A stretch of DNA of 64,000 nucleotides from Sphingopyxis indica (GTDB taxonomy: Bacteria > Pseudomonadota > Alphaproteobacteria > Sphingomonadales > Sphingomonadaceae): the NCBI RefSeq assembly GCF_900188185.1, contig NZ_FZPA01000007.1, positions 124,001 through 188,000 of the forward strand. The letters run 5' to 3'. The notes under the pieces are model-generated. The model saw only the letters and a list, made by a program, of their open reading frames with translations, did not search any database and had not been told where the DNA came from. The position numbers and the translations under genes were made by a program. Of this stretch, positions 15,222 to 62,807 are shown piece by piece. Each line of letters starts with the position of its first letter. The first letter of the stretch is position 1.

Positions 15222-15401
15222 TCGCACGAAGACACAAAGCCACGAAGCCACGAAGAATCCCTGTCACCGATCGCATCTGGCTTGTCGAAGGCCGTTGTTT
15301 TCTTTGACGCCGCAAAAGAAGGACGGTGCTTCGACAAGCTCAGCCCAAACGGATTTTGGCGGATTTTGGGCGAATCTTCGTGGCTTTGTGTCTTCGTGCG
15401 A
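15222..15401. repeat. Dispersed inverted-repeat element, copy A (180 bp, class I)
   Basis: Perfect 26-bp inverted arms at 15222-15247 and 15376-15401 are built of short units such as CACGAAG and CACAAAG; the left side carries one extra CCACGAAG unit. Inside lies a second palindrome, CTTGTCGAAG (15281-15290) with CTTCGACAAG (15329-15338), and a further partial stem (CCGT...TTCTTT / AAAGAAGGACGG). The element fills the gap between the convergent hsp20 and GNAT genes and encodes nothing recognisable. It matches copy D (60102-60279) in both arms and core. Confidence 0.85.
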
Positions 15402-15411
15402 GAATTCTCCT

Positions 15412-15891
15412 TCACAGCGTCCGCGTCATGAAGCGGCTGAACGGATCGGGCTTATAGTCGCCGAACGGGTCGCATTCCTCGAACCCATAGCGGCGATAGA
15501 GCGCGTGTGCGGGTTCGAACGCCGCGCCCGATCCGGTTTCGAGGCTGAGCCTCCCGGCGCCGCGCGTCCTGGCCTCGGCCATGATGTGATCGAGCATCCG
15601 CGCCGCGACGCCCTGGCGCAGAAAGGCATCGGCGGTGCGCATCGACTTGATCTCGCCGTGCCGCGCATCGAGCATCTTGAGCGCCCCGCAGCCCGCGAGA
15701 TCATCGCCGCGATGGATCGACCAGAAGGTGACGCCCGGCCCCTTGAGCCCCTCGAAATCGAGGAAATGACAGCTCTCTGCCGGCGAATTCGCCAGCATCC
15801 CAGCAAAATGCGCTTCGAGCAGCGCGCGGATCGGCGTGCCCGACAGATCGTCCTCGACGATCCGCCAGGCCCCATCCGCCTTCGGACTCAC
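15412..15891 (-). CDS. GNAT-family N-acetyltransferase
   Basis: An acetyl-CoA-dependent acyltransferase of the GNAT fold, substrate unknown. The product has a core from about residue 70 with [21 protein letters not shown], where the LRQGVA stretch fits the Q/RxxGxG/A pyrophosphate loop, and ends with the [12 protein letters not shown] motif typical of the fold. I take the GTG at 15891 as start (159 residues) because it overlaps the preceding carboxypeptidase stop in a GTGA junction; an ATG at 15918 in the same frame is an alternative. It is the last gene of the lipoprotein-carboxypeptidase run. Confidence 0.85.
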
Positions 15892-16997
15892 AGCATCTGA
15901 TCCAGCGTCGCGAGGCACGCATGGGCGAGCAGCTTGCAGCGTTCGGGCGACCAGCCCTGTGCCGGGTCGGGCAGGTCGCGATTATCCTTGAACGGCATTT
16001 CGATCGTCATCGACACCGCACCGAAGCGCTCGGCGAGCTGCGTCGTCGACATCGAGAGGTTCGCCTTGCCGGGCGGCGAGGATTCATAGCCGAGCTCGGT
16101 CTGGAAATCGGGCGTGTTCGCGGCGAGCGCATTCTGGAAGGCGAGGAACGCTGCCATCTGCTCGTCCTTGAGCGACGGAATGCCCTCGAAGCCGGCAAGG
16201 AAGACCGCCGGAATCGCTTCGTCGCCGTGGACGTCCATCGCCCAGTCGACGCCGCTTTCGTCCATGGCATTACGCACGCAGAGCACTTCGGGGCTCCGAT
16301 CGGGGGTCGGTTCGTGCCATTCGCGGTTGAGGTTCACGCCCGCATAGTTGGTGCGCAGATGGCCGCGGCGCGAGCCGTCGGGATTCATGTTGGGGACGAT
16401 GTGGAAGCGGCACTTCGCCCGCAGCGCGCGTGCATGCGGATCGGCGGGGTCGGTGAGCTTTTCGAGCGCCCCTTCCATCCACCATTCGGCCATGCTCTCA
16501 CCCGGATGCTGGCGCGCATAGAGCCAGACCTGCGTGTCGCCGGTGCCCATTTCGAGGCAGTCGATCGGCTGGCCTTCGAGGCTGGTGCCGAGACAGCGAT
16601 AGGTCACGCCCTCGCACCCGGCGACCGACGCGATCAGGTCGTGGTGCCGCTCCATCGAATAGGGCGCAAAATAGGCGATCCACAGGATCGGCGCTTCGGC
16701 GGTGTGACGGATCGCCAGCGTGCCGGCTTCATAGCTGGTGTCGAGCCGGAACCAATCTTCGCGGTCATAGCTCGCGCAGGCGGCATAGCCGGGCCAGCCG
16801 TCGGGATAGGCCGAATTCGCCAGCCCCTCGATCGCAAGCTCGAGCGCGTCGCCCACAGCGCAGGCGACGCGGAAATGAAACCATTGATAGAAGTCCGATT
16901 CGCGGTCCTTGCGGATCGAAAGACGGGCAGAGGTGCCTTCGAGCGACTCCACGACGATGTTGCCGCTGTCGAAGGCGGCGTTGATGCTGATGGTCAT
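15888..16997 (-). CDS. M14-family zinc carboxypeptidase (cytosolic carboxypeptidase-like)
   Basis: A metallo-carboxypeptidase of the group that resembles eukaryotic cytosolic carboxypeptidases. The 369-residue product has the N-terminal beta domain of that group (about 1-120) and a catalytic domain with zinc ligands His164 and Glu167 (RQHPGES), His257 (DVHGDE), substrate-binding NLNREW and the catalytic Glu in [11 protein letters not shown]. No signal peptide is visible, so it is probably cytoplasmic. Its ATG overlaps the stop of the upstream lipoprotein gene by four bases. Confidence 0.92.
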
Positions 16998-17626
16998 GGG
17001 ACGGTGATAGTGCGTCCCGATTCGCCGGGAAAGTCCTTGAATAAGGCTTCGGACAATTTCGCCGCCGCGAGCGAGGGTTGCGCCGCGGGTGCCTTTGCCG
17101 GAATCGCGGCGAGCGCGCGGCCTTCCCACAGCGCTTGGCCGGTCGCGGCATCGTCGATGCGAACGCTGAGGCGCAGATTGTCCATCTCGCGCGGTCCGCC
17201 GCCGAGATTGATCCCGACACCCACGCCGAGCCCCGACCCATAGCTGCCGGTCGAGCCGCCAACGCCGACCGACACCGGCGAACGCTTCGCCGCCACGCCG
17301 CGATCGGCGCGTTCGAACCCTATGCGCACCTTGAGCGGCGCGGTGCTCGTCGCCGCGCCCTCCGCCGGGACGAGGCCCTGAAGCCGGAGCTGGCGTTCGA
17401 CCGCGGTGCGATAGCTGTCCCATTCGAGCGAGGGCTGGATGCCGCTGGTCATGCCCGTCGTATCGGCGAGCGGAACCTCGTCGATGACGTAGCGCGTGCC
17501 GGGCGCCCAGCCCGCGACCGCTTCGCTGTGGAAGCGCGTGACCTCGACCGGCGGGACGGGGGTGGCGCAGGCGGCAAGCGCAAGCGCGGCGGTGCCGAGC
17601 AGAACGGCAGGAAGATGACGCATCAT
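16994..17626 (-). CDS. DUF4136-type lipoprotein
   Basis: A probable outer-membrane lipoprotein of unknown function. The 210-residue product has a lipoprotein signal ([20 protein letters not shown], with lipidated Cys about residue 20), then a DUF4136-like domain with the [11 protein letters not shown] glycine-rich turn and the [20 protein letters not shown] strand typical of the family. It is co-translated with the carboxypeptidase that follows (ATGA overlap). A link between the two is suggested only by the gene order. Confidence 0.8.
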
Positions 17627-17689
17627 GCGGACATGATGCGCCCTCGAAGCTGGCTTGGCAATGAACGGCCCGAAAGCCGTTGTTGCGGA

Positions 17690-18364
17690 TCAGCGATAGA
17701 AGATATGATTGTCGATCTGCGCGACGCGCGTCTTGCGCCACGCCGGGCGCACATAGCGTGCATGGAAGAAAAGCGCGCCCGGCGCCTTGTTCTTCCAGCT
17801 GCCGTCGCGGGCGATCTGTGCGATCGCGAGAGCGCGCGTCCATTGCGCGCTCGATTCGCGGATGCGCGGCATCTTGCCGCCGCGCAGGAAGCTGAACTGG
17901 CGGCGCTGATGCACCACGCCGCAATAGCTGTCGGGGAAGCGGCCCGATTGGGCGCGGTTGATGATGACGTGCGCGACCGCAAGCTGGCCGGCGAGCGATT
18001 CGCCGCGCGATTCGAAATAGACCGCACCAGCAAGGCAGCGCAGTTCGGGATCGACCTCGGCGGGGCGGGGGGTCGCATCGACGAGCGCGGCGAGCGTCGC
18101 GGCCGGAACGAACGCCGGCTCGGCGGGCGCGACCGGCGCTTCGGGTTGGCCGGCAAGAGGGGTATCGGGATCGACCGGAGCGACATCGGTCGACGGGTCC
18201 GCGGTTTCCGTCACCACCGGCGCCTCGGCGCTCGGCAGGGTGATCGCGGGAATATTGGCGTCGGCGCCAAGTCCGGTGGCGAAGCCGGGTTCGGCCAGAA
18301 ACAGCATGGGAGCCACGGTCAAGGCCACGGCAGCCGCACTGGCAGCGTTCAATATGCGACTCAT
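17690..18364 (-). CDS. Cell wall hydrolase, SleB/CwlJ family
   Basis: A probable lytic transglycosylase-like peptidoglycan hydrolase acting in the periplasm. The 224-residue product has a signal peptide (about 1-30), a Pro/Ala/Val-rich linker (30-105) and a SleB-type catalytic domain with [13 protein letters not shown], where the Glu is the expected catalytic residue, followed by [15 protein letters not shown] and [12 protein letters not shown]. Non-sporulating alphaproteobacteria often carry such hydrolases for wall remodelling. It stands alone on the minus strand. Confidence 0.9.
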
Positions 18365-18559
18365 AATGTCCGTCGAAAGGGCGGCTGATGAACCGGAACC
18401 TCAAAGACAGGCGGGGGGGTTATGGCCCTGTGCCGCCTGCGGTCATCATCCGACTGCGTGTCCGTTCCGTTTGTCGGAAAATCCCGTCATCGAAGGGACG
18501 CCGCGGAACGACCTGCGCGTTGCAAACTGCGGGGCCACTTATTGTGCGCCGCACCAATG

Positions 18560-18898
18560 TCAAGCCAATAATGCCCACTCGGCGACGAGTTGTGGCGCGT
18601 TCGCGATGTCCACCTCTATGATCCAGAGGTCGGGATCGGTCCGGCGCCGCCGCTCGACATAGGCTGCGCGCGCCTCCGAATCGCTGTCATTTTCGGGATC
18701 GACGGCCTCCCAGACGTAGCGCCCGCCGGGGGCGAAACGTCGTTCGAGCAGCTGTCCCATGCTGGCACGATCGCGGCATTGGACAAGGATCGTGCCCGCC
18801 TGGTCATCGCCCGCCGCGATGACGGTCGCAAAGCCGCCCGCCGCCTCGGTGCGGCGAATCAACAGATCGACGAGAAAGCGGCTGGTCAGCCGCGCCAT
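18560..18898 (-). CDS. DUF1491 family protein
   Basis: A small 112-residue cytoplasmic protein of an alphaproteobacterial family without known function. It starts MARLTSRFLVDLLIRRTEAAGGFATVI and keeps the family features: a hydrophobic strand with AGTILVQC and an acidic DPENDSDSEARAAYVERR stretch before DLWIIEVD. It is separated from ptsN by 24 bases and may share its transcript. No catalytic motif is visible. Confidence 0.8.
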   Translation of the reverse strand: MARLTSRFLVDLLIRRTEAAGGFATVIAAGDDQAGTILVQCRDRASMGQLLERRFAPGGRYVWEAVDPENDSDSEARAAYVERRRRTDPDLWIIEVDIANAPQLVAEWALLA

Positions 18899-18922
18899 GG
18901 CAAGGAGCGGCGGTGCGCGGCG

Positions 18923-19387
18923 TCAGGCCGCGTCACGCGCTTCGCTGTCGACGAGCAACGCATAGAGCGCTTCGTCGTTCTTCGCGCCGCGCAGCCGGTC
19001 GGCGACGCTCTCGTTGCGGAGCATCCGCGACACGCCGGCGAGCGCCTTCAGATGGTCGGCCCCCGCGTCGAGCGGCGACAGGAGCACGAAAAGGAGGTCG
19101 ACCGGAAGGCCGTCGACCGCCTGAAACTCGATCGGCCGCGCGAGCTGAAGGAAAAGGCCGCGCACGCCGCCGAGATCGGGCAGCTTTGCATGCGGCAGCG
19201 CGATGCCGCGCCCGAAACCCGTCGAACCGAGCCGCTCGCGTTCGAGCAGTGCCTCGGCAACCTCGCCCGAGTCGAGACCAAGCGAGCGCGCCGCGAGGTC
19301 CCCGATGAACGGGAAAAGCGCCTTTTTCGAATCGATCGGCACATGCGCGCGCACCGTCGCGGGATAGAGGAGGGAAGATAGGTTCAT
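18923..19387 (-). CDS. ptsN: PTS IIA-like nitrogen regulatory protein
   Basis: EIIA-Ntr takes phosphate from NPr and signals nitrogen or potassium status; it does not transport sugar. The 154-residue product has the phosphorylation site GRGIALPHAK with His66, and the RPIEFQAVDGLPVDLLFVLLSP strand region. It lies 153 bases after hpf, the usual companion in alphaproteobacteria, but no rpoN is next to them in this window. Confidence 0.93.
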   Translation of the reverse strand: MNLSSLLYPATVRAHVPIDSKKALFPFIGDLAARSLGLDSGEVAEALLERERLGSTGFGRGIALPHAKLPDLGGVRGLFLQLARPIEFQAVDGLPVDLLFVLLSPLDAGADHLKALAGVSRMLRNESVADRLRGAKNDEALYALLVDSEARDAA

Positions 19388-19540
19388 CGATCAGGTCAAA
19401 TTCTGTCAAAGCAGCGGCGCCCGCCTCCCGGTGCGGGCTCTGGGCGAACGGTCTGGAATCAATGTGGCAGGTTTCGCCACCGCCGGTTCGGGCATCGTTG
19501 GGCGCGGCCCTTAGGCCGGATGGCGAAAAAAATCCAGCCC

Positions 19541-20113
19541 CTATTGCGGCTCGACCCAGCCGATCGTTCCGTCGCGGCGGCGATAGACCATATTGTGCGA
19601 GCCCGTCTTGCTGTTCACGAAGAGCAGCGCATTGGTGTCGCGCAGGTCGAGCATCATCACCGCGTCGGACACGCTGCTGGTCGGAATATCGACGCGCGTT
19701 TCGGCGATCACCGCCGGCGCGTCGCCCGCATCGTCGTCCTCATTTCCGCCGTCAAAGACGATATAGCTCGCATTGTCCTGGATTTCGTCGATCGTCGGCG
19801 ACGGTTGTCCGGGGCTGCTGCGATCCTTCAATCGTCGCATATAGCGCCGGAGCTGCTTTTCGATGCGCTCGGCGGCGCCTTCGAAGGCGACATGGGCGTC
19901 CTGCGCCTGGCCGTGCCCCTTGAGCACGAGTCCCTGCATCACATGCGCGACGATATCGCACTGAAAACTGTCGTGCGGCCCTTTGCCGAAGGTGGCGTGC
20001 GCCCCGATCGCGCGAGAGAAATATTTGTCGGCAATCGCGTTCATCCGGTCCGACACATGCGCCTGCAGCGCTTCGCCGGTTTCGATCTGGTGCCCAGAGA
20101 CGCGGATTTCCAT
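19541..20113 (-). CDS. hpf: Ribosome hibernation promoting factor, long form
   Basis: Long HPF binds the decoding region and dimerises ribosomes into inactive 100S particles in stationary phase. The 190-residue product has the N-terminal S30AE domain (MEIRVSGHQIETGEALQAHV to about residue 100), a flexible linker rich in Asp and Asn, and the C-terminal dimerisation domain (about 130-190) with AVMMLDLRDTNALLFVN and NMVYRRRDGTIGWVEP. Length marks it as the long form. ptsN follows on the same strand. Confidence 0.95.
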   Translation of the reverse strand: MEIRVSGHQIETGEALQAHVSDRMNAIADKYFSRAIGAHATFGKGPHDSFQCDIVAHVMQGLVLKGHGQAQDAHVAFEGAAERIEKQLRRYMRRLKDRSSPGQPSPTIDEIQDNASYIVFDGGNEDDDAGDAPAVIAETRVDIPTSSVSDAVMMLDLRDTNALLFVNSKTGSHNMVYRRRDGTIGWVEPQ

Positions 20114-20159
20114 TTGTCTTCTCCTTCAAGGCCTCAGCGACGGCGGCGGCTGCCGACCG

Positions 20160-20858
20160 TCACGGACTATCGTGCCACAAAGGCTGGTTCAGCGTGGCCA
20201 CGAATTCGGTATGACGCGCAAGCTCGGCCGCGGTTGCGGCGTGCGGGCGCGGTTCGCGATAGGGACGGGACGAAACGACGCCGGCCGTCGACGCGGCGAC
20301 GGGCCTCGACGCGGGCGCCGCTTCGGCGCCGAGGCCGAGCCCGATCTGCCGCCCGCCCGTCATCTCGATATAGAGATGCGCAAGCAATTCGGCGTCGAGC
20401 AGCGCGCCGTGCTTGACCCGGTGGCTGCGGTCGATGCCATATCGGGTGCAGAGCGCGTCGAGGCTGTGTTTGGCGCCCGGATGCAGCTTGCGCGCCATCT
20501 GGACGGTGCAGCACATGCGGCTCATGTCGAGCGCGGGCCGCCCGGCGCGCACGAGTTCGGCGTTGACGAAGCCGAAGTCGAAAGCGGCGTTGTGCGCGAC
20601 CATCGGCGCATCGCCCAGAAATTCTAGCAGTTCGTCGACGCGGCTGGCGAACAGCGGCTTGTCGGAAAGGAACTGGATCGACAGCCCGTGGACCGCCTCG
20701 GCCTCCATCGGCATGTCGCGCTCGGGGTTGAAATAGGCGTGGAAATTGCGGCCGGTCTCACGGCGATCGACCAGCTCGATGCATCCGATTTCAACGAGGC
20801 GGTCCCCGGCGCGGGGATCAAGGCCCGTGGTTTCGGTATCGAAAATTATCTCTCGCAT
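20160..20858 (-). CDS. dnaQ: DNA polymerase III epsilon subunit (3'-5' proofreading exonuclease)
   Basis: Epsilon proofreads DNA synthesised by Pol III. The 232-residue product begins MREIIFDTETTGLD, where Asp7 and Glu9 form the Exo I metal site, followed by HNAAFDFGFVN (Exo II) and HGALLDAELLAHLY (Exo III-epsilon with catalytic His and Asp). The C-terminal tail, Ala- and Arg-rich, should bind alpha. The ATG at 20858 is preferred over one 17 codons upstream. It ends the maf-aroE-coaE-dnaQ run, 19 bases after coaE. Confidence 0.96.
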   Translation of the reverse strand: MREIIFDTETTGLDPRAGDRLVEIGCIELVDRRETGRNFHAYFNPERDMPMEAEAVHGLSIQFLSDKPLFASRVDELLEFLGDAPMVAHNAAFDFGFVNAELVRAGRPALDMSRMCCTVQMARKLHPGAKHSLDALCTRYGIDRSHRVKHGALLDAELLAHLYIEMTGGRQIGLGLGAEAAPASRPVAASTAGVVSSRPYREPRPHAATAAELARHTEFVATLNQPLWHDSP

Positions 20859-20877
20859 CGAGGGATTAATCTGGACC

Positions 20878-23718: not shown

Positions 23719-24052
23719 CGCCGCACCATGGCGTCGCCGATCCGAAAAAGGCAAGCGACGAAGCGAAATCGGCACCTGTGGATAAAATCCGGCACAAGCC
23801 GGGGAGCAAAGGGGGAGGATGGTTTCATCCCCGGCGCTGTCGATTCCACCCCATAGATTGTCCACAGCGCGCGAAACTTATCCACAGGCTGTGAAGAAGG
23901 CGAAGAAGAAATGCGACTCCCCGCGGTGGATCGGCCGCAAAGGAGTCAAGCTGTTGGCAAAATCGGTGCCGCGCCCTAAAGCCCGCTTATTCGACCGCCA
24001 ACAAACCACCACAATCATTCTAATATATAATGATGGAAGAAAGAAGGGCCGC
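23719..24052. other. Probable chromosomal replication origin (oriC)
   Basis: The 334-base gap between divergent ppsR and hemE has no gene. It holds two perfect DnaA boxes, TTATCCACA at 23878-23886 and its reverse TGTGGATAA at 23777-23785, and a one-mismatch box TTGTCCACA at 23858-23866. An AT-rich stretch at about 24000-24035 (TCTAATATATAATGA) could be the unwinding element. Three GANTC sites, the CcrM methylation target, lie at 23842, 23915 and 23943. The hemE side matches the Caulobacter origin setting, and parAB with parS lie 9-13 kb away. Activity itself is inferred. Confidence 0.8.
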
Positions 24053-25081: not shown

Positions 25082-25101
25082 GCAGCAGACAGGCAGACGA
25101 A

Positions 25102-33009: not shown

Positions 33010-34881
33010 ATGCAGGATCGCGCAGCATATGATGTCCTCGTCGTCGGCGGGGGACATGCCGGGACCGAGGCCGCGGCGGCCGCGGCGCGGCTTGGTGCGC
33101 GCGTTGCGCTGGTCAGTTTCGACCCGGCGCTGATCGGCACCATGTCGTGCAACCCGGCGATCGGCGGACTCGGCAAAGGGCATCTGATGCGCGAGGTCGA
33201 CGCGCTCGACGGATGGATGGCGCGCGCCGCCGACGCCGCCGCAATCCATTACCGGATGCTCAACGCGTCGAAGGGCGCGGCGGTGCAGGGGCCGCGCATT
33301 CAGGCCGACCGCAAGCTTTATCGCGAGGCGATCCAGTCGCTGCTCGCGGCGGAGACGGGGATCGAAGTCGTGGCGGGCGAAGCCGCCGCGCTGATCCTGT
33401 CGGACGACGGCGCGCGCGTCGAGGGGCTCGAACTCGGCGACGGCACGCGCCTCGCGGCGCGCGCGGTGGTGCTCGCGACGGGCACCTTCCTCGGCGGGCG
33501 GCTGTTCCGCGGCGAGGAACGGATGGCGGGCGGGCGCATCGGCGAGGCGGGCGCGCACCGGCTCGCCGAACAGCTGCGCGCGGCGAAGCTGCCGATGGCG
33601 CGGCTCAAGACGGGCACGCCGCCGCGGCTCGATGGGCGGACGATCGACTGGGCGCGGCTCGTCGAGCAGCCGTCGGACAGCGCCGAGGGTGCGAGCTGGA
33701 CCTGTTCCACGTGGAACAGCGGCCGGACGGTGCCGCAGATTTTCTGCGCGATCACGCGCACCAATGCCAAGTCGCACGCGATCATCGCGGCGAATCTCGA
33801 CCGCTCGCCCTTGTTCACCGGCGCGATCGGCGCGGCGGGACCGCGCTATTGCCCGTCGATCGAGGACAAGATCCACCGCTTCGCCGACCGCGACGGGCAT
33901 CAGGTGTTTCTGGAGCCCGAGGGGCTCGACAGCACCCTGGTCTATCCGAACGGCATTTCGACCTCGCTTCCCGCCGACGTCCAGCTGGCGATGCTGCGAA
34001 CGATGGAGGGGCTCGAGGCGGTCGAGATGGTCGTGCCGGGCTATGCGGTCGAATATGACCATATCGACCCGCGCGCGCTCGACCGGACGTTGCAGGTGCG
34101 CGCCATCGGCGGACTGTGGTGCGCGGGGCAGATCAACGGGACCACCGGCTATGAAGAAGCGGCGGCGCAGGGGCTGGTCGCGGGGGCGAACGCCGCGCTG
34201 GCGGTGCAGGGGCGCGATCCGCTGATCCTCGACCGTTCGCTCTCCTACATCGGGGTGATGGTCGACGATCTGGTGCTGCAGGGGGTGACCGAGCCGTACC
34301 GGATGCTCACCGCGCGCGCCGAATATCGGCTGCGGCTGCGCGCCGACAATGCCGCGACGCGGCTTACTCCGCACGGGATCGACATCGGGCTCGTCCGCCC
34401 GGCGACCGCTGCGCGGTTCGAGGCGCGCATGGCGACACGCGCGCGCGCCGCGGCGCTGCTCGACGCGCCGGTCGCGAGCAGCGATTATGCGGCGGTCGGG
34501 CTGGCGCTGCCCGGCGACGGGACCCTGCGGCGGCGCGTCGACCTGCTCCGCTACGCCGGGGTGACGATGGCGACGCTCGGGGCGCTGGCGCCAGAGCTTG
34601 CCGCGATCGACCCCGCGATCCTCGCCGAACTCGCCGAGGACGCGCATTACGCCCCCTATATCGCGCGCCAGGACGCCGAACTGCGCGCGCTCGCGGCGAA
34701 CGAGGCGATCGCGCTCGACCCCGCGCTCGACTATGCCGCGATCGGCGGCCTGTCGCGCGAGATGGTCGAGCGGCTGTCGAAAGCGCGCCCCGAAACGCTG
34801 GGACAGGCGGCGCGCATCGACGGCGTGACCCCGGCGGCGCTGACCGCGATCATGGTGCATAGCCGGCGACGCGCGGCTTGA
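33010..34881 (+). CDS. mnmG: tRNA uridine-5-carboxymethylaminomethyl synthesis enzyme MnmG (GidA)
   Basis: The FAD partner of MnmE. The 623-residue product has the FAD-binding [12 protein letters not shown] (residues 11-22), the [15 protein letters not shown] motif, the catalytic Cys281 in [11 protein letters not shown], and the C-terminal helical domain. Residues 232-236 (CSTWN) in a variable loop are encoded by a perfect parS palindrome. The ATG at 33010 lies 75 bases after mnmE. Length is normal for the family. Confidence 0.97.
33703..33718. promoter_or_regulatory. parS site 2, inside mnmG
   Basis: TGTTCCACGTGGAACA is a perfect 16-base palindrome and sits in frame, its first codon TGT coding for Cys232 of MnmG. 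It is therefore a DNA centromere site that must also be readable as protein. It is part of the three-site cluster upstream of parAB. Confidence 0.9.
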
Positions 34882-34950
34882 TTGGTCTGATTTGGGCCAA
34901 GGCCGCGGCGGGTCTCACTATGGTCGTCGTCTCGACGTGAGGGCGGGCCC

Positions 34951-35601
34951 TCAATTTCCGCCGAAGCGCTCGATGCTGAGAGCCGAAATTTCGTCTTTGA
35001 ACAATCGATAGCGACGCTCGACGTCCAGTATATGCGCCACCTTGGCGGGGCGTTCGCAGTCGAATGCTTGGAGGACGCCGCACATTGCTGCAATGTCGCC
35101 GGATTGACGCGCTCGCGTCCATTCCTCGATCCGATCCGAGTCCAGAATCTGACCCCAAACTCCTTGGTCTTCGTCACCGCCAGATGCCCAGTTGGCATGG
35201 GCCAGCGGACGTTCCATACTTGGTTCGCGCCGCCAGATGTGCGGAATAGTGCCTCGATCTTGAACCCAATATTCCAGTATGCGCACCTGAAGCGATGTCA
35301 TGGTGGCGCCCCCAGCGCACCGCGCGCCGAGTAAATGACACGCAACCGGCGGGTCTCCAACGTTCACTTGGTTCTCGAATGCTACCTGGTCCCTCACGTT
35401 CGCGAATAAGGGCGCTCGGGGGCAAACTGCCACATCGTAGCGCGTCCGACATTCCCGGCATTCCGTATGCACCAAAGCAACTTCGGAAGATATCACCAGC
35501 TCTGGATCAAATGCGCAGTATCGCGGAACGCCATCCAACCACCAGAGGGCACGGTCTGATACGCGATCAATAATATCATCGTACCGCAGAAGCATGACCA
35601 C
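34951..35601 (-). CDS. Unrecognised CxxC protein in a lower-GC patch
   Basis: I do not recognise this 216-residue protein. It starts MVMLLRYDDIIDRVSDRALWWLDGVPRYC and has a likely zinc-binding CRECRTRYDVAVCP stretch (about residues 48-61) with further Cys and His later (VACHLLGARC). The C-terminal third is helical and charged. No signal peptide or membrane segment is seen. Base composition looks clearly lower in GC than the neighbours, and the gene separates mnmG from rsmG, which often adjoin each other. It reads as an insertion of foreign or recently gained DNA, placed beside a repeat cluster. Confidence 0.65.
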   Translation of the reverse strand: MVMLLRYDDIIDRVSDRALWWLDGVPRYCAFDPELVISSEVALVHTECRECRTRYDVAVCPRAPLFANVRDQVAFENQVNVGDPPVACHLLGARCAGGATMTSLQVRILEYWVQDRGTIPHIWRREPSMERPLAHANWASGGDEDQGVWGQILDSDRIEEWTRARQSGDIAAMCGVLQAFDCERPAKVAHILDVERRYRLFKDEISALSIERFGGN

Positions 35602-36010
35602 TTCATTAGTCGCAGAGAGGTTAGGGACATGTGAATGTCGGCGGCTCCTTCGCCGCGTCGCGACCCCGTTGCGCTACGGTACGCCGTCGACCACCGCCGC
35701 TGTCCGCCCCACCCCCTTCCGCAGGCGGGAGGGGAGAGGAATGTTTGCTTGGAGTTCAAACGGCGCCCGGCGCCCGATGGACCCCGGATCAAGGTCCGGA
35801 GTGACGGAAATGGGCGGCGGTGGGATGGGCGCGCGCGCCACTATCTTCATATCCTTGTGTGATTGTCGCTTGCATCTCCGGTAGCGGGGCGTCAGCGGGT
35901 AGTTCGCGCCTTTGTGCCTTTGCTTAAGGCTCCTAAAACCTCACGCAAAGGCGCGAAGAGGAGGCTGGATTCCCGCGGAGGCGCGGCGCGCCGTCTGCGA
36001 CTCCGCGGGA
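35602..36010. repeat. Cluster of different palindromic repeats upstream of rsmG
   Basis: No gene is supported here. Four repeats lie in series: a degenerate copy of the CCCCTCCCGC palindrome (about 35705-35737, better copies at 61394-61509); a CCGGATCAAGGTCCGG unit (35784-35799); a short inverted pair TTCGCGCCTTTG / CAAAGGCGCGAA (35903-35914, 35946-35957) like the arms of the dispersed elements; and ATTCCCGCGGAG / CTCCGCGGGAAT (35969-35980, 36001-36012), which runs into the rsmG start. The promoters of the CxxC gene and rsmG must also be here. Confidence 0.7.
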
Positions 36011-52289: not shown

Positions 52290-52290
52290 C

Positions 52291-53493: not shown

Positions 53494-53537
53494 GGGATCG
53501 GCTTTCCTAAAAGGCCGTCCCCGATCGGACGGGGCGG

Positions 53538-54434: not shown

Positions 54435-54436
54435 TT

Positions 54437-56091: not shown

Positions 56092-56423
56092 CCGTCGCTG
56101 CTAGGGCCTCGGCGCGCGAAAGGAAAGACGGGGGATTCGGGCAGAGGCCGCAGAGGGTGCAGCGATTTGGGGTTGCATGGATTCACGCGGAGACGCGGAG
56201 ACGCGGAGAGGTTGGTTCGGGCCGAAAGGCCCTGAAACAATCGACGCCGCACGATGCCGCGGCGCCGGACCTGGAAGGCCGCTTCGCGGCAATCATCTTT
56301 TTTCTCCGCGTCTCCGCGTGAACCCCAGTATCTTGACCCGCTTTGCGCTCTTGAGAGCAAATCATCGCAATCACCCGCCGCTTGCCCCCGTGCCCTTCGC
56401 GCGGGTAAGGCACGGGCGGCACC
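56092..56423. other. Divergent hemC-tsaD intergenic region
   Basis: This 332-base region lies between the starts of hemC and tsaD. Its main content is dispersed element B (56182-56322); the remaining 90 bases before hemC and 100 before tsaD must hold their promoters. I saw no clear promoter pair. Confidence 0.5.
56182..56322. repeat. Dispersed inverted-repeat element, copy B (141 bp, class II)
   Basis: Perfect 20-bp inverted arms (56182-56201 and 56303-56322) start TTCACGCGGAGACGCGGAGA; the left arm continues with a third CGCGGAGA unit. The core contains TTCGGGCCGAAAGGCCC and GGAAGGCCGCTTCGCGGC, both shared with copy C (62665-62807). It lies between divergent hemC and tsaD and so could affect both promoters. 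Confidence 0.85.
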
Positions 56424-57458
56424 ATGACCCTGATCCTTGGCCTCGAATCGAGCTGCGACGAAACCGCGGCGGCGCTCGTCACCGGCGACCGGCAGATTCT
56501 GGCCCATCGCGTCGCGGGGCAGGAGGCCGAGCACCGGCCCTATGGCGGCGTCGTGCCCGAGATCGCGGCGCGCGCGCATGTCGACCGGCTCGCGCCGCTC
56601 GTCGAGGGCGTGCTCGCCGACGCGGGCGTCGCGCTCGCCGACGTCGACGCGATCGCCGCGACCGCCGGGCCGGGGCTGATCGGCGGGGTGATGGTCGGGC
56701 TGGTCACCGGCAAGGCGCTCGCGCACGCCGCGGGCAAGCCGCTGGTCGCGGTCAACCATCTCGAAGGCCATGCGCTGAGCCCGCGCCTCACCGATCCCGA
56801 CCTCGCTTTCCCCTATCTGCTGCTGCTCGTCTCGGGCGGGCATTGCCAGCTGCTGCTTGTCGAGGGCGTCGGCGCCTATCGCCGCCTCGCGACGACGATC
56901 GACGATGCCGCGGGCGAAGCGTTCGACAAGACCGCGAAGCTGCTCGGGCTCGGCTATCCGGGCGGCCCCGCGGTCGAGCGCGCGGCGACGGACGGCGACC
57001 CGCGCGCGGTGCCGCTGCCGCGCCCGCTCGTCGGCAGTGCCGAGCCGCATTTCTCGTTCGCGGGCCTCAAGAGCGCGGTCGCGCGCGCCGCCGCGTCGGG
57101 CGCGCACAGCGTCGCCGATCTCGCTGCCTCGTTCCAGCAGGCGGTCGTCGACTGCCTCGTCGATCGCAGCCGCATCGCGCTCGCCGCCTGTCCGGGGGCG
57201 ACCGCCTTCGTCGTCGCGGGCGGCGTCGCGGCGAACGGCGCGATCCGCGCCGCGCTGACGGGTCTCGCGCATGACTATGACAAACGCTTCGTCGCGCCGC
57301 CGCTGTGGCTATGCACCGACAATGGCGCGATGATCGCCTGGGCGGGCGCCGAGCGCTTCGCGGCGGGGCTCACCGACCCGCTCGACACCGCCGCGCGGCC
57401 CCGCTGGCCGCTCGATCCCGCCGCCGAGGCGGTGCGCGGCGCCGGAGTAAAAGCATGA
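56424..57458 (+). CDS. tsaD: tRNA threonylcarbamoyladenosine synthase TsaD
   Basis: TsaD transfers the threonylcarbamoyl group to A37 of ANN-decoding tRNAs. The 344-residue product starts [19 protein letters not shown] and has the metal ligands in [20 protein letters not shown], and [10 protein letters not shown]-terminal [12 protein letters not shown] carries a conserved Asp. Its stop overlaps the gpsA ATG by four bases. Confidence 0.97.
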
Positions 57459-58462
57459 CGAGTGAAGGCATGACGTCATACAGCAATTTCGGGGTCGTTG
57501 GCGGCGGCGCTTGGGGCACCGCGCTCGCGCAGCTGCTCGCCGCCGAGGGCGCGCCGGTGCGGCTCTGGGCGCGCGAGGCCGATGTCGTCGCGGCGATCAA
57601 CGCCGAGCATCGCAACCCGATCTTCCTGCCCGGAGCGGCGCTCTCGCCCTCGCTGGTAGCGACCGGCGACCTCGCCGACCTCGCCGGGCTCGACGCGCTG
57701 CTCGTCGTCGTTCCCGTCCCCTATCTGCGCGCGGTGCTCGCCGGGCTGCCCGCCGGCGACGCGCCGCTGATCTTTTGCAGCAAGGGGATGGAAGCGGAGA
57801 GCTTCGCCTTCCCGATCGACATCGCGCGCGCGATTTTCCCCGACCGCCCGCTCGCGGTGCTCTCGGGTCCGACCTTCGCGAACGAGGTCGCCGCGGGCCT
57901 GCCGACCGCGATCACCCTCGCCGCCGCCGACGTGGGCCTCGCCGACGCGCTGGCGCAGGCGCTCGCGCGCCCGCATTTCCGCCCCTATGTCTCGACCGAC
58001 ATGATCGGCGCCGAGATCGGCGGTGCGGTCAAGAATATCCTCGCGATCGCGTGCGGGATCGTCGACGGCGCCGGGCTCGGCCTTAATGCACGCGCGGCGC
58101 TGATCAGCCGCGGTTTCGCCGAAATGACGCGCTTCGGCCTGTCGCGCGGCGCCGAGGCGGAGACGCTCGCGGGGCTCGCGGGCCTCGGCGACCTGGTGCT
58201 CACCTGCACTTCGTCCAATTCGCGCAATTTCGCGCTCGGCCAGGGGCTCGGGCGCGGCGAAACCGCCGCTGCGCTGATGGCCGACCGCCGTACCGTCGCG
58301 GAAGGGGCGTTCAGCGCCCCGGTGGTGGCCGCGGCGGCGCGCGCCGGGGGAATCGACATGCCGATCACCGACGCGGTCGCGCGGCTGGTCGCCGGCGAGA
58401 CCGGTGTCGCCGACGCCGTTCAGGCGCTGCTCAGCCGCCCGCTGCGACGCGAGGGGCGATGA
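57455..58462 (+). CDS. gpsA: Glycerol-3-phosphate dehydrogenase (NAD(P)+)
   Basis: GpsA makes glycerol-3-phosphate for phospholipid synthesis. The 335-residue product has the dinucleotide fold [17 protein letters not shown] (about residues 13-29), [16 protein letters not shown], and the catalytic Lys in [15 protein letters not shown]. The ATG at 57455 overlaps tsaD (ATGA); a second ATG at 57470 with a GAAGG before it is possible and would trim five residues. Confidence 0.95.
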
Positions 58463-58538
58463 CCCGCGACACAAGATTGCCTGCCCCACGCCCCCGCGCT
58501 AGACTGCGCGCAGGGGAGCAGCAGAGGGGGCGCCAGGC

Positions 58539-60059
58539 TTGAGCCAGACCGACAGCGCAGCCGCGCCACCTTCGCCCGACCCCTTGCCCGAAGCCGACAC
58601 GGCCGCGCTGGCGAAGGGCGGCCGCACCAATTTCTTCGGCTTCGTGCTGCGCCTCGTCGCGCGGCTGCCCTTCCTCTATATCGCCGGCCGCTGGTACGGG
58701 CCGGAGGCGGTCGGGCGCTTCGCCTTTGCGGTGCTCGTCATCGAGCTGGTCGCGCAGATTGCGACGCTCGGGCTGAAGCGCGGGCTTGCCGAGCAATTGA
58801 GCGCGCCCGGCGCCGACCCGCGAATCGTCGTTTGGGACGGCATGTTCGTCGCCTTTCTCGCCTCGGCGATCGGATCGGCGGTGCTGTTCCTGCTGCCGCA
58901 GCTCATGTACCCCGCCGGCGACCTGTCGGCGGTCGATCGCTGGATGGCGCTGCTCGTCTTTGCGATCGCGGGGACCGAAATCGCGCTCGCGGCCTGTGCC
59001 TATCGCTTCGACATCGGCGCGACTGTGCGCGCGCGCGCGGTGGTCGAGCCGTGGACGATCAGCATCGCGGCGGCGGGTTTCTGGTATGTGTCGCCGCGCG
59101 ACGGGCTGATGCTCGCCTATGCCGCTGCGATGGTCGCCGCCTTCCTGACCGCGCTGTGGCCGATGATCCGCCACTATGGCGGGCCGGGCGTGTGGCGCCC
59201 GCATATGGCGCATCTGATCGGCCTCGCGCGCCGCAACGCGCCGCTCGCCGCCGCCGATGCGATCGAGTGGGGGACGCGGCGGCTCGACCTGTTCATCCTG
59301 GGCCAGTTCACCTCGCCGACGATCTATGGCATTTATTATATGGCGCAGCAGGTCGCGTCGCTGCCGCAGAAGCTGAAGACCAGCTTCGAGCCGATCCTCG
59401 GCCCCGTCATCACGCGCAACCTCGCCGAAAAGCGCTTTTCGGCGGTCGCCGCGCAGGTCAGCCAGGTCGGCTTCTGGATCATCGCCGCGCAGGCGGGGGT
59501 CGCGCTCGCGCTCGGCATCCCGGGCGAGGCGGTGATGGGGCTCGTCGGGCCCGAATTCGTCAGCGGCACCGGCGCGCTCGCCTTCCTGCTCGCCGCCGAA
59601 GTCGTCGCCGCGACCGCGGTGGTCAGCGAGGCGGCGCTCGTCTATGTCGCGCGCCACCGCAATCTGCTGCTCAGCCTCGCGACGCTGGGGCTGCAGGCGG
59701 TGCTTAGCGTCGCGCTGATCCTCACCGCGCAGGCGATGGGGCTGCCGCCGATCTATTATGCGGGGGCGGTTGCGGGCGCGCTGATGCTTGCGCTCGGCTT
59801 TGCGTCGGTCGCGAAGGCGTGGCTGCTCGCCCGCATCCTGCACGCGCCGGTGAACAGCCTGCGCTGGGCGCTCGTCTGGGCGACCGCGGGTGCGGCGATC
59901 CTCGGCTGGGGCGCGACGCAGATGCCCGAATGGGCCGAGCTGCTGTTCGGCGTCCCCGTCATCCTCGGCATCTATGCGTGGCTGATCTGGACGCGCGGCT
60001 TCGGCCCCGCCGACCGCGCGCTGTTCAAAAAGCATCCCGAGAGCGCGGTCGCAGCGTAG
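58539..60059 (+). CDS. Polysaccharide flippase (Wzx/MATE-like membrane protein)
   Basis: A 506-residue integral membrane protein of the lipid-linked oligosaccharide flippase superfamily, with about 12-14 helices from residue 25 onward. It starts at a TTG (58539) behind an AGAGGGGG ribosome site; the N-terminal 25 residues are Pro/Ala-rich and cytoplasmic. LPFLYIAGRWYGPEAVGRFAFAVL is typical of the family. No glycosyltransferase genes lie nearby, so the exported glycan is unknown. A dispersed repeat follows its end. Confidence 0.82.
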   Translation: MSQTDSAAAPPSPDPLPEADTAALAKGGRTNFFGFVLRLVARLPFLYIAGRWYGPEAVGRFAFAVLVIELVAQIATLGLKRGLAEQLSAPGADPRIVVWDGMFVAFLASAIGSAVLFLLPQLMYPAGDLSAVDRWMALLVFAIAGTEIALAACAYRFDIGATVRARAVVEPWTISIAAAGFWYVSPRDGLMLAYAAAMVAAFLTALWPMIRHYGGPGVWRPHMAHLIGLARRNAPLAAADAIEWGTRRLDLFILGQFTSPTIYGIYYMAQQVASLPQKLKTSFEPILGPVITRNLAEKRFSAVAAQVSQVGFWIIAAQAGVALALGIPGEAVMGLVGPEFVSGTGALAFLLAAEVVAATAVVSEAALVYVARHRNLLLSLATLGLQAVLSVALILTAQAMGLPPIYYAGAVAGALMLALGFASVAKAWLLARILHAPVNSLRWALVWATAGAAILGWGATQMPEWAELLFGVPVILGIYAWLIWTRGFGPADRALFKKHPESAVAA

Positions 60060-60101
60060 GGGCGCTCGTCAAGCGCGCTCCTCCAACCGCGGAAAATGTC
60101 T

Positions 60102-60279
60102 CGCACAAAGCCACGAAGCCACAAAGAATGGCCGCACCCCGTTCGGCCTGAGCTTGTCGAAGGGCCGTCTTTCTTTCGACGTTGCAAAGGAAGAACGATG
60201 CTTCGAGGCGTTGAGCCCGAAGTGGAGGCAAATTGGCGGACGGCGCGGCGCCCCCTTTGTGGCTTCGTGGCTTTGTGCG
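60102..60279. repeat. Dispersed inverted-repeat element, copy D (178 bp, class I) with nested REP
   Basis: Perfect 25-bp inverted arms (60102-60126 and 60255-60279) are built of CACAAAG and CACGAAG units. Inside is a REP-like stretch, CCGTTCGGCCTGAGCTTG (from about 60139) running into CGAAGGGCCG, and a core shared with copy A, including the TTTCTTT / AAAGGAAG pairing. It fills the gap between the convergent flippase and adenosine kinase genes. Confidence 0.85.
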
Positions 60280-60314
60280 CGATAATGGCAACACCCGGCC
60301 TCACGCCCGTTCCA

Positions 60315-61313
60315 CTACCCCAGTCGCGCCGCGACCTTGGCCTTGAGGTCGGTCTGCGCGCGCGGGCCGACCTGCGCGATGATTTCGCGCGCGCAGACGG
60401 CGCCCATGGTCAGGCAGTCGGCGATCGGGCGCCCTTCGGCGTGGCCCGACAGGAAGCCCGCGGCGAAGAGGTCGCCCGCGCCGGTGGTGTCGACCACCGC
60501 GTCGATCGGCTCGGCGCCGACCTCGGTGCGCGCGCCGCCGGTGATCGCGATCGCGCCCTTTTCGCTGCGCGTCACGACGAGCAGCGGCACCTGCGGCGCG
60601 ATCTTCGCGACCGCGGCCTCGAAATCCTCTTCACCCGCGAGCGCCTTGATCTCGACCTCGTTGGCGAAGAGGATGTCGAACAGTCCCGCCGCGATCAGCG
60701 CGCGGAAATCCTCGCCATGACGGTCGATGATGAAGGCGTCGGACAGGGTGAAGGCGACCTTGCGCCCCGCGCCCCGCGCCACGTCGATCGCGCGCCGCAT
60801 CGCCGCGCGCGATAGTTCGGGGTCCCACAAATAGCCTTCGAGATAGAGGATCTCCGACGCCGCGATCAGTTCCTCGTCGATCATCGCCTGCTCGAGCAAA
60901 TGGCTCGCCCCCAGAAAGGTGTTCATCGTCCGCTGTCCGTCGGGGGTGACGAGGATCAGGCAGCGCGCGGTCGGCGCCCCGCCCGCCAGCGGCGGCGTGT
61001 CGTAGGCGACGCCGAGCGCGCGCAGATCGTGGGTAAAGACCTGGCCGAGCTGGTCGTCGGCGACCTGCCCGATGAAGGCGCAGCGCTCGCCGAGCGCCGC
61101 CATGCCCGCCAGCGTGTTCGCCGCCGACCCGCCCGACATCTCGACCGCGGGACCCATTGCGGCATAGAGGCGCGCCGCCTCCTCGGCGTCGATCAGCCGC
61201 ATCGACCCCTTGACCAGGCCCTCGGCCTCGATCAGCGCATCGTCGGCGCGGGCGAGAACATCGACGATCGCGTTGCCGATCGCAACGACGTCGAAACGGG
61301 CGGTGGAGGCCAT
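60315..61313 (-). CDS. Adenosine kinase-type PfkB family sugar kinase
   Basis: A ribokinase-fold kinase most like adenosine kinases; it would phosphorylate adenosine or a related nucleoside. The 332-residue product has VVAIGNAIVDVLA at the start, GGSAANTLAGMAALG (the substrate-lid GG), and the catalytic VDTTGAGDLFAAGFLSG near the C-terminus. Long continuous homology fits, but the exact substrate is not certain. It is convergent with the flippase gene. Confidence 0.88.
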   Translation of the reverse strand: MASTARFDVVAIGNAIVDVLARADDALIEAEGLVKGSMRLIDAEEAARLYAAMGPAVEMSGGSAANTLAGMAALGERCAFIGQVADDQLGQVFTHDLRALGVAYDTPPLAGGAPTARCLILVTPDGQRTMNTFLGASHLLEQAMIDEELIAASEILYLEGYLWDPELSRAAMRRAIDVARGAGRKVAFTLSDAFIIDRHGEDFRALIAAGLFDILFANEVEIKALAGEEDFEAAVAKIAPQVPLLVVTRSEKGAIAITGGARTEVGAEPIDAVVDTTGAGDLFAAGFLSGHAEGRPIADCLTMGAVCAREIIAQVGPRAQTDLKAKVAARLG

Positions 61314-61393
61314 GGACTATCCTGTGCTGTTGGGGAAAAGCTGCGCCGCGCCTTACGGGGCGAAGCACGCCAAGGCAAGCCGGCGCTTGACGT

Positions 61394-61509
61394 CCCCTCC
61401 CGCGGGCGGGAGGGGCAGCGAGAGTTGCGGGCTTGCTCGCTACTCGCAGCGGGGTGGGCCATAGCGGCGTCGCTTGCCCACCCCCAACCCCTCCCGCAAG
61501 CGGGAGGGG
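61394..61509. repeat. Paired palindromic repeats upstream of the EI24 gene
   Basis: Two perfect palindromes CCCCTCCCGC-N2-GCGGGAGGGG lie at 61394-61415 and 61488-61509. Between them GGGGTGGGC (61451-61459) pairs with GCCCACCCC (61476-61484), and AGCGAG pairs with CTCGCT. The 116 bp would fold into a branched structure. It lies between the divergent starts of the kinase and the EI24 gene; a degenerate half copy is at 35705-35737. Confidence 0.75.
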
Positions 61510-61575
61510 AGATGGAGCCCGGCCCCGACCGTCCCGCACTTGACGCGCATCGCCCCCGCGCGTCACACCCGCGCG

Positions 61576-62253
61576 ATGGCCCGCGCGCTCCACGCCCTGC
61601 TGCTCGCCCTTGGCGACCTCTCCAGCCCGCGCGTGCTGCGCGTCCTCGCGCAGAGCCTTGCACTGACCTTGCTGATCTTCGTCGCCGCCGGCGCGGCGCT
61701 CTTTTTCGGCACGCGCTGGGGAATCGCGCAAATGGGGTGGCTCGGCGGCACCGGGCTCGACCTTGCCGGTGCGGCGGTCCTACTGCTGCTGGTCGCGGGA
61801 AGCTGGCTGCTGTTCCGCGGCGTCGGCGTCGCGGTCGTCGGGCTGTTCGCCGATGCGATCGTCGCCGACGTCGAGGCGCGCCACTATCCCGCCGCCGCGG
61901 CGCGCGCGGTCGATGTCGGCTGGCGTCAGAACGTCGCGCTTGCGCTCGCCTCGCTCGGCCGCCTTGTCCTCGGCAACCTTGCCGCGCTGCCCTTCTACCT
62001 GCTGCTGCTCGTCACCGGGGTCGGCACCGTGTTGCTCGCGCTCGCGGTCAACGCGCTACTGCTCGGCCGCGACCTCGAAGCGATGGTGCGCGCGCGCCAC
62101 CCCGACCGGCTGCGCTTCGCCCGCGGCGCGCGCTGGTCGCTCGGCCTGCTGTCCGCCGCAAGCTTCCTGGTGCCCGTCGCCAATATCTTGGCCCCCATCC
62201 TTGGCGCGGCTATGGCCGTCCATATGCTGCATATGGGGAGCGAAAGACCATGA
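61576..62253 (+). CDS. EI24 / CysZ-like membrane protein
   Basis: A 225-residue membrane protein with about four to five helices, related to the EI24/CysZ family; CysZ imports sulfate, but other members have unknown roles. It starts MARALHALLLALGDLSSPRVLRVL and has long hydrophobic stretches (LTLLIFVAAGAALFFG, DLAGAAVLLLLVAGSWLLF, LPFYLLLLVTGVGTVLLAL) and the family turn DLEAMVRARHPDRLRF. It is followed with a four-base overlap by a lipoprotein gene. Confidence 0.82.
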   Translation: MARALHALLLALGDLSSPRVLRVLAQSLALTLLIFVAAGAALFFGTRWGIAQMGWLGGTGLDLAGAAVLLLLVAGSWLLFRGVGVAVVGLFADAIVADVEARHYPAAAARAVDVGWRQNVALALASLGRLVLGNLAALPFYLLLLVTGVGTVLLALAVNALLLGRDLEAMVRARHPDRLRFARGARWSLGLLSAASFLVPVANILAPILGAAMAVHMLHMGSERP

Positions 62254-62630
62254 TCCGACAAAGCCGTGCCGCCGGCGCCGCCGGCCTCGCGCTGCTGCTC
62301 GCGGGCTGCGCGGGCGCGGCGATTCCGCGCGCGACGCCGCCCGCCGCGAGCGCGGGCGTGCCGCCGATCACGGCGCCGCGCGTCACCCAGAACAACGCGC
62401 TGATCGGCCACGACGCCGACGCCGCGATCGGCGCCTTCGGCCGCCCGCGCCTCGACGTCACCGAAGGGGCGGGGCGCAAGCTGCAGTTCGCGGGCGGGCC
62501 CTGCGTGCTCGACGTCTATTATTACGCGCCGCGGCAGGGCGCGAAGCCGCTCGCCACCCACGTCGACGCGCGCACCCCCGACGGCCGCGACGCCAATATC
62601 GACAGCTGCATCGCAGCTTTGCGGCGGTAA
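62250..62630 (+). CDS. Small lipoprotein of unknown function
   Basis: A 126-residue protein with a lipoprotein signal (lipobox LLAGC, Cys about residue 20) and a compact secreted part carrying two more cysteines (GGPCVLDVYYYA and IDSCIAALRR), likely paired. The pattern of DADAAIGAFGRPRLDVTEGAGRKLQF is seen in other sphingomonad lipoproteins. I do not recognise the family. It is translationally coupled to the EI24 gene. Confidence 0.75.
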   Translation: MIRQSRAAGAAGLALLLAGCAGAAIPRATPPAASAGVPPITAPRVTQNNALIGHDADAAIGAFGRPRLDVTEGAGRKLQFAGGPCVLDVYYYAPRQGAKPLATHVDARTPDGRDANIDSCIAALRR

Positions 62631-62664
62631 CGCCCTTCTCTCTCCCGCTTCGGTGAAAAGATTT

Positions 62665-62807
62665 GTTTCACGCGAAGGCGCGAAGGCGCGAAGAAGCTGT
62701 TCGGGCCGATAGGCCCCATTCCCTTTCCCAACCCGCGTTCCGACGCGACGCTGCAAGGGGAAGCCGCTTCGCGGCCAGCGCAATATCTTCGCGTCTTCGC
62801 GTGAAAC
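62665..62807. repeat. Dispersed inverted-repeat element, copy C (143 bp, class II)
   Basis: 21-bp arms with one mismatch (62665-62685 and 62787-62807) start GTTTCACGCGAAG; the left side has three CGCGAAG units. The core contains TTCGGGCCGATAGGCCCC and GGAAGCCGCTTCGCGGC, matching copy B. It lies between the convergent lipoprotein and queG genes and could end transcription from both sides. Confidence 0.83.

Follow-up and report, generated by a model that had tools for sequence, protein, structure and literature searches.

The 64,000-nucleotide (nt) stretch of Sphingopyxis indica DNA analysed here (the window; contig NZ_FZPA01000007.1, positions 124,001 to 188,000) carries four full elements, A to D, and a mini copy, all with inverted arms made of short tandem units, and our analysis showed that they belong to a family of hairpin-forming elements that spans many bacterial phyla and whose longer copies carry a putative nuclease gene, GxxExxY. 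A preliminary description of the window had placed all five copies correctly (Table 1). Measured from the element ends it gave, the perfect arms of A and D are 26 and 25 bp long, as it had claimed; the 20–21 bp claimed for B and C hold for B (20 bp perfect), but in C that length spans a mismatch, the arms being perfect over 13–14 bp and 95% identical over 22 bp (one mismatch). Among perfect inverted repeats of the window with arms up to 200 bp apart, the longest measures 26 bp, while nine of ten base-shuffled windows had no perfect inverted repeat of at least 14 bp and the tenth had one of 14.

Table 1. Positions in the window of the elements, their arms and two core hairpins
Feature	Position	Strand	Remarks
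Element A, 180 bp, CACRAAG class	15222..15401		convergent site: Hsp20 gene / GNAT gene
Element A left arm	15225..15255	+	CACGAAG ACACAAAG CCACGAAG CCACGAAG
Element A right arm	15376..15398	-	read on - strand: CACGAAG ACACAAAG CCACGAAG
Mini copy, short arms	35903..35957		reverse polarity (CTTTG-type arm first)
Element B, 141 bp, CGCGGAG class	56182..56322		between divergent hemC and tsaD
Element B left arm	56186..56208	+	CGCGGAG x3
Element B right arm	56304..56318	-	CGCGGAG x2
Element D, 178 bp, CACRAAG class	60102..60279		convergent: lipopolysaccharide biosynthesis gene / adenosine kinase
Element D left arm	60104..60126	+	3 units
Element D right arm	60255..60277	-	3 units, same as left
Element C, 143 bp, CGCGAAG class	62665..62807		convergent: hypothetical gene / queG
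Element C left arm	62671..62693	+	CGCGAAG x3
Element C core hairpin GGGCC-GATA-GGCCC	62703..62716		two-sided changes at 2/5 pairs, 22 copies
Element C core hairpin GCCGC-TTC-GCGGC	62763..62775		almost invariant, 22 copies
Element C right arm	62787..62801	-	CGCGAAG x2

The arms had been described as tandem heptamers; the tandem arrangement stands, but the real unit is an octamer, and arms consist of 2–5 tandem octamers of the form N + CRCRRAG. The two arm subfamilies first recognised are too few: there are CACRAAG, CGCRAAG, CGCGGAG and CGCAGAG classes, with A and D carrying CAC(G/A)AAG units, C CGCGAAG and B CGCGGAG. An extra left-arm unit, said to mark every full element, is present in A, B and C, whereas D has three units in each arm, and among paired elements genome-wide the longer arm may be the left or the right one. 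The mini copy is real and its arms are short, with a polarity opposite to that of the full elements. Comparison of 22 CGC-type elements yielded a common core with three parts, the hairpins GGGCC and GCCGC-TTC-GCGGC and, between them, a looser stem in which 72% of cells are paired, and in the whole structure 93.5% of cells are paired, versus 42–54% when it is slid (a length filter removed six of the 45 innermost elements, and two of the 24 CGC-type ones were left out of alignment A1). This core is found inside CGCGAAG arms as well as inside CGCGGAG arms, so that arm class differs while the core stays. CTTCGACAAGCTCAG palindromes lie in the A/D core (window 15280-15345, for example) and are also found armless at other sites of the same genome.

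In the genome from which the window comes (the home genome; 4.15 Mb, 37 contigs), homologues beyond the window copies are abundant. The two-unit arm pattern gave 130 + 131 matches on the two strands, versus 20 + 22 for the reversed pattern, and at E<=1e-3 element A had 34 matches and element C 33, their own loci and reverse-strand self-matches included. This copy number excludes a chance origin of A and C and, together with the shuffled windows, places the arms beyond chance composition. The arm count per strand is highly variable within the genus, from 0 to 177 across 35 other genomes; in 24 genomes from other families of the order it is 0–3, approximately the control level.

The absence of coding capacity noted earlier is true of the window copies but not of the family. 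Some arm pairs lie 430–470 bp apart and enclose an intact open reading frame (ORF) of ~125 aa, which belongs to PF13366 (PDDEXK_3) / TIGR04256 (GxxExxY) with E ~1e-33 to 1e-37; the home-genome copy on contig C16 scored 127 bits against a curated cut-off of 22 (Pfam) and 129 against 35 (NCBIfam). PF13366 is carried by 18 of the 36 genus genomes, which gave 32 hits, and by 3 of 14 control genomes; 31 of the 32 genus genes lie directly between inverted tandem-unit arms. In the first 30 loci there are arms on both sides, 15–51 bp from the domain ends and with all arm classes represented, one of these loci having an in-frame stop and one being a fragment; the copy on G032 C21 has, by the pattern used, a right arm only. 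Arm hits number 9–352 in GxxExxY-positive and 2–27 in GxxExxY-negative genus genomes. The home genome has three coding copies, and their arms are of the window subfamilies: the one on C31 has both arms, of the A/D class (CACAAAGACACGAAGCCACAAAG), the one on C25 has CGCGGAG x3, the same units as in the left arm of B, and the one on C16 has CGCAAAG x3. Among three-unit arms of non-coding elements, counted with the coding copies' own arms excluded, 40/49 start with CAC in genomes G029 and G030, where the coding arms are CAC, versus 6/30 in G012, where they are CGC. The presence of the putative nuclease gene in the longer copies suggests both a substrate for the gene product and a possible mode of spread for the repeats.

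The PD-(D/E)XK fold is defined by E, D and ExK (and QxxxY) residues in an alpha-beta-beta-beta-alpha-beta core. In 87 GxxExxY proteins (90 loci minus one with a stop and two with short domains), E27, E77 and K79 are kept in 87/87, D67 in 99%, and Y30, Q91 and Y95 in 98%. An AlphaFold2 model of the C16 protein (mean predicted local distance difference test score (pLDDT) 93.6, predicted template modelling score (pTM) 0.88) has the order H-H-E-E-E-H-E-E, with predicted elements H27-40, E45-55, E58-70, E74-79, H86-99 and E103-108, an order that we take to be that of the PD-(D/E)XK core. Residues and predicted fold both agree with GxxExxY being a putative PD-(D/E)XK nuclease. A sequence search of solved structures returned no match for it, PADLOC a single weak one (E=0.0056) and PHROGs none. 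There were no matches in 50,697 phage records and seven in 72,556 plasmid records; four of the seven were read (Sphingomonas, Bacteroides, Bernardetia, Treponema), and three of these have unit arms and one an 11-bp repeat. We know of no function for GxxExxY, and the open-licence PubMed Central literature yielded no described role for it or for the arm sequences, although a description elsewhere is possible.

Of the three roles proposed in the preliminary description, namely non-autonomous mobile elements, bidirectional terminators and nucleoid sites, the first fits best, by virtue of dispersal, homology mostly bounded by the arms, absence in relatives, the variable arm counts of the genus and the existence of a coding partner. 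Of 89 pairs of simple elements aligned over at least 100 bp, 76 lose homology on either side no more than 12 bp from the arms; in 9/89 it runs more than 15 bp past the arm on some side, including three CGCGAAG copies that share 42–101 bp of flank. Element D is missing at the orthologous site in all 29 congeners whose loci were examined (79 searched). Most of the 29 have 320–375 bp there, several of which read like a small reverse-strand gene that is missing from the home genome. Of the other element sites in relatives, some are empty and others are occupied by a different hairpin family or by an element whose arms belong to another class.

The window is 98–99% identical to a 404-kb S. indica replicon, and 9/9 element loci compared (~80 kb) are common to the home genome and S. 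indica at that identity; leaving aside one replaced stretch, the two largest indels of these ~80 kb are single arm units, one of 8 bp that is extra in the home genome's left arm of A and one of 9 bp in a mini element. A 970-bp stretch at window 34881-35851 corresponds in S. indica to an unrelated ~620 bp with a GNAT acetyltransferase gene. Positions 283000-381000 of NZ_CP076395.1, recorded as S. indica MC4 'plasmid pMC4', are syntenic with the window in ribosomal protein genes, tuf, fusA, rho, mnmG and parAB, so the record named as a plasmid probably contains chromosomal DNA. Between G029 and G030, mostly 93–97% identical where compared, many insertions of other hairpin families differ; several other long-hairpin intergenic families are polymorphic between G029 C5 and G030 C22 (L468-L485), and in two cases the hairpin family AGTCTGTCCTG...CAGGACAGACT sits at CTAG/TTAG with 4–5 bp duplicated, at a position that is empty in the other genome.

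In three of the four arm classes, the two arms of an element are more alike than membership of the same class would predict. Against within-class shuffles, left-right matching was 0.950 vs 0.896 for CACRAAG (18 pairs), 0.980 vs 0.913 for CGCRAAG (12 pairs) and 0.876 vs 0.681 for CGCAGAG (10 pairs), with 0/5000 shuffles as high in each class. Concentric composites recur, with CGCAGAG arms outside CGCGGAG and CGCRAAG outside CACRAAG, and the CGCAGAG/CGCGGAG composites are similar as far as the outer arms. At L319 (G030 C2) CGCGGAG and CGCAGAG arms are interleaved, not nested, as if one had inserted or inverted within the other.

Coding copies sit at few places. The 33 coding loci (32 from the genus and one from Sphingomonas parapaucimobilis) fall into six sites with 9, 9, 7, 5, 2 and 1 members, and links within sites were supported by both flanks in 36/36, 22/36, 21/21, 6/10 and 1/1 cases. 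At the fabD-fabG junction S. parapaucimobilis has CGCGAAG-type arms, five Sphingopyxis copies have CGCGGAG and three CGCAGAG; arm class varies among the members of all four largest sites, and the two-member site has mixed arms. We read this as the coding gene staying put while both its arms switch class together, with same-site replacement by another coding copy as the alternative. Arm class follows the protein tree, with 7 changes vs 15.5 when shuffled and 0/200 shuffles as low (the tree left out 2 of 30 loci, and alignment A3 left out 7 more). The best explanation of these patterns in Sphingopyxis is that coding copies reside at a few sites, while the short copies form a turning-over intergenic population, often at gene 3' ends.

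The family extends far beyond the genus. An exact scan for two CACGAAG units, 85–115 bp and two inverted units, with the spacer base left free, returned at least 120 stretches, 80 of them named; the named matches include Gammaproteobacteria, Planctomycetota, Chloroflexota, Verrucomicrobiota, Gemmatimonadota, Acidobacteriota, Hydrogenedentota and Geotalea. In 78 of the 120 listed elements the outermost spacers of the two arms are the same, vs 46 when shuffled (maximum 65 in 10,000), although with related copies from the same genome among the loci these are not 120 independent events. In 26 distant genomes that had been chosen via the double-arm pattern (by title, four gammaproteobacterial and 21 from other phyla are among them), PF13366 is present in 21, versus 57 of 299 genomes in a Pseudomonadota sample whose positives are dominated by one family. 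Inverted repeats (score >=14) surround GxxExxY in 25/30 distant loci (null 2.9%, best null score 25) and in 23/30 loci of the Pseudomonadota sample, where the null rises to 12.9% because unrelated loci share arms. Distant units are mostly CRCRRA(G/T) plus 1–3 spacer bases. Two near-identical CACGAAG elements in the gammaproteobacterium JABHSO (L189, L234) have a longer common border with an outer ~14-bp inverted repeat of the GTAACTACTCAGCG type, as if the hairpin rode in a conventional miniature inverted-repeat transposable element (MITE).

A second protein family occupies similar loci. PF05635, the four-helix-bundle protein of 23S rRNA intervening sequences (IVS), is present in 18 of the same 26 distant genomes, and 22/30 PF05635 loci have inverted repeats (null 0.5%), mostly of 7-bp units. 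For repeats of scorable length outside the genus set, lag 7 was best in 18/22 PF05635 repeats vs 1/47 GxxExxY repeats (Fisher 7e-12).

We consider it probable that the short copies are non-autonomous foldback elements served by the resident putative GxxExxY nuclease; transposition, and the nuclease's part in it, we infer from the comparisons above. In such a scheme GxxExxY would recognise the folded arms, as a DNA hairpin or cruciform or as single-stranded DNA, and cut there, and short elements would be copied in trans into new sites, preferably other hairpins. The likeness of the two arms may come from one arm templating the other in a folded-back intermediate, in which case both arms would change class together, and insertion into existing hairpins would explain the concentric arms and the 3'-end sites.

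A number of observations count against this explanation. Target-site duplication, a check suggested by the preliminary description, was absent in 45 elements (offsets 0–19, lengths 2–9), and no clean filled/empty pair at high identity was found. CGCGGAG arms have no excess left-right matching (14 pairs, 0.967 vs 0.972 shuffled). The tie between GxxExxY presence and arm abundance (Mann-Whitney 2.8e-6, Spearman 0.83) is not corrected for phylogeny, which the shuffle tests ignore as well, and the assignment of the C16 fold to PD-(D/E)XK is a prediction from the order of its secondary-structure elements. The correspondence between short and coding arms within a genome is imperfect: G012 short arms are nearer to the home genome's coding arms (mean distance 2.80) than to those of G012 (3.80), G029 short arms are marginally nearer to G030's coding arms than to G029's, and G022 has CGCGGAG short arms and no CGCGGAG coding copy. 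Five of the 26 distant genomes have short elements without PF13366. Simple internal deletion of coding copies was rejected as a source of short elements: of 36 coding/short matches longer than 45 bp, the 20 inspected run from the arm into a second, outer arm or flank and not into the gene, so it is the arms that tie short elements to coding ones.

The main rival explanation is that the elements are functional RNA hairpins under selection (bidirectional terminators, RNase III sites or mRNA 3'-end protectors), with GxxExxY as a resident RNA/DNA regulator of the hairpin regulon and of its own transcript, and we regard it as unlikely. One argument for it is gene context. As had been described, A, C and D lie between convergent genes, with B in the divergent hemC/tsaD region, and 836 kb of the home genome (nine contig pieces, of which C19a, C20a, C23a and C26a were picked for holding elements, and C9 and C21 were known carriers) contain 44 arm clusters, 34 of them paired: 13 convergent, 14 tandem and 7 divergent. 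Convergent sites are enriched (odds ratio 4.2, p=4e-4), which is due to the CAC and CGCRAAG classes (11/23), with no enrichment in CGCGGAG/CGCAGAG (2/11). Some convergent sites are occupied in relatives by other hairpin families, at the very position of the element. The folds are stable (element C folds as arms plus hairpins, z=-6.2; RNA fold of element A, z=-9.5), two-sided changes in the 22 CGC-type copies affect 14 pairs vs 7.2 when shuffled, and the stems of the related rRNA IVS are RNase III substrates, according to PMC4990558. However, many of the two-sided changes are one class difference common to many copies, and pair types are no more numerous than in shuffles (177/500 as high). The seven divergent elements, B included, sit poorly with a role at 3' ends, and the absence of D at the 29 orthologous sites is contrary to a conserved role at that gene. 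In the 20 nt past the arm TTTT occurs at 10/90 ends and AAAA at 17/90 (45 elements), and the pattern of an intrinsic terminator, a hairpin followed by a T-run, was not found; the impression of clearly A-rich DNA after the arms was weakened by the base counts (A 28%, T 22%). The proposal of bidirectional terminators finds partial support, with the convergent enrichment for it and the divergent copies, the scarcity of T-runs and the two classes without enrichment against it. The Rfam covariance models gave no hit that reached gathering score, either in the window or in six loci.

A third possibility is that an unrelated transposase, either of the IS200/RAYT-type Y1 HUH or of the DDE kind, mobilises the elements and that GxxExxY is a passenger that shares their arms. 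In its favour, and to the detriment of the foldback explanation, Y1_Tnp is present in 6/36 genus genomes, all of which have at least 64 arm hits (p=0.001), and the two JABHSO copies reach as far as the outer terminal repeat. At the same time, no arms lie within 1.5 kb of any of the seven Y1_Tnp matches, and the high-copy genomes G009, G012, G021, G027, G029, G030 and G031 (two of them only 73% and 88% complete) have no Y1_Tnp. The lack of target-site duplication and the arms at 31 of 32 GxxExxY genes also speak against this possibility, DDE families not having been searched, and we find it quite improbable. Neutral DNA, in which slippage lengthens the tandem units and template switching perfects the palindromes, so that arms arise repeatedly with no dedicated enzyme, could account for the one-unit indels relative to S. 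indica. Against it stand the recurrence across many phyla of one heptamer class, CRCRRA[G/T], around one protein family, a unit period that tracks the encoded family, and the tight link with one gene family, and we give it little credence.

Comparison with known systems points to partial likeness with several. The 23S rRNA IVS, as set out in PMC4990558, are 428–444 nt long with 28-bp inverted repeats, an S23p ORF and, upstream of the ORF, tandem GACAGAT heptamers that vary by whole units between strains; they are excised by RNase III, and their origin is still unclear. The Sphingopyxis elements are like them in terminal inverted repeats, a single small ORF, similar length and whole-unit variation; they differ from them in being intergenic, in encoding PF13366 rather than PF05635, in their 8-bp units and in their abundant non-coding short forms. 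Membership was rejected both by location (no Rfam match at gathering score in the window or around the three coding copies of the home genome) and by ORF (PF13366, with PF05635 in 0/8 Sphingopyxis genomes tested). Heptamer direct repeats are also reported from Beggiatoaceae, and the accessible sections of PMC4679880 draw no link from these to paired inverted arms or PF05635.

Another comparison is with the hairpins formed by repetitive extragenic palindromic (REP) sequences, called REPINs, and the REP-associated tyrosine transposases (RAYTs), which PMC8049555 describes as single-copy, vertically inherited genes that replicate REPINs. On that account the likeness lies in non-autonomous hairpin elements combined with a resident enzyme gene, and the differences are that the enzyme is a putative PD-(D/E)XK protein rather than a Y1 HUH one, and that arms and gene are united here in one folding element, the coding copy. 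Membership of the REPIN-RAYT system, like mobilisation by Y1_Tnp, was rejected on the distance of the arms from Y1_Tnp and on the seven high-copy genomes without it. REP anatomy is one of tagged REP pairs, versus the tandem octamer arms seen here. Bacterial MITEs, which derive from insertion sequences, are likewise short, dispersed and non-coding with terminal inverted repeats, and the Sphingopyxis elements are unlike them in the absence of target-site duplication and of an identified parent insertion sequence. The Foldback and Galileo elements of Drosophila are eukaryotic, the Galileo transposase being of the P-element type, and we know of no PD-(D/E)XK gene in either. The system is therefore best read, by analogy, as resembling REPIN-RAYT in logic and the 23S rRNA IVS in anatomy while being a member of neither.

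A broader proposal, which we put forward tentatively, is that GxxExxY proteins serve as the enzymes of a separate mobile-element class. A resident PD-(D/E)XK nuclease reading tandem-heptamer hairpins would then drive foldback elements as well as the non-coding copies derived from them, the rRNA IVS would belong to a second branch, in which the proteins are four-helix bundles and the units 7 bp long, and movement would proceed via a hairpin intermediate that copies arm from arm and inserts into hairpins. Three loose ends are joined in this way: the CACGAAG/CGCAGAG-type repeats dispersed across bacteria, GxxExxY with its nuclease signature, and the rRNA IVS of unclear origin. GxxExxY gains a concrete candidate substrate, its own arms. 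The mobility enzymes known to us fall into the DDE, HUH, recombinase and reverse-transcriptase classes, and, if it is true that the nuclease drives the elements, GxxExxY would be a mobility enzyme outside all of these.

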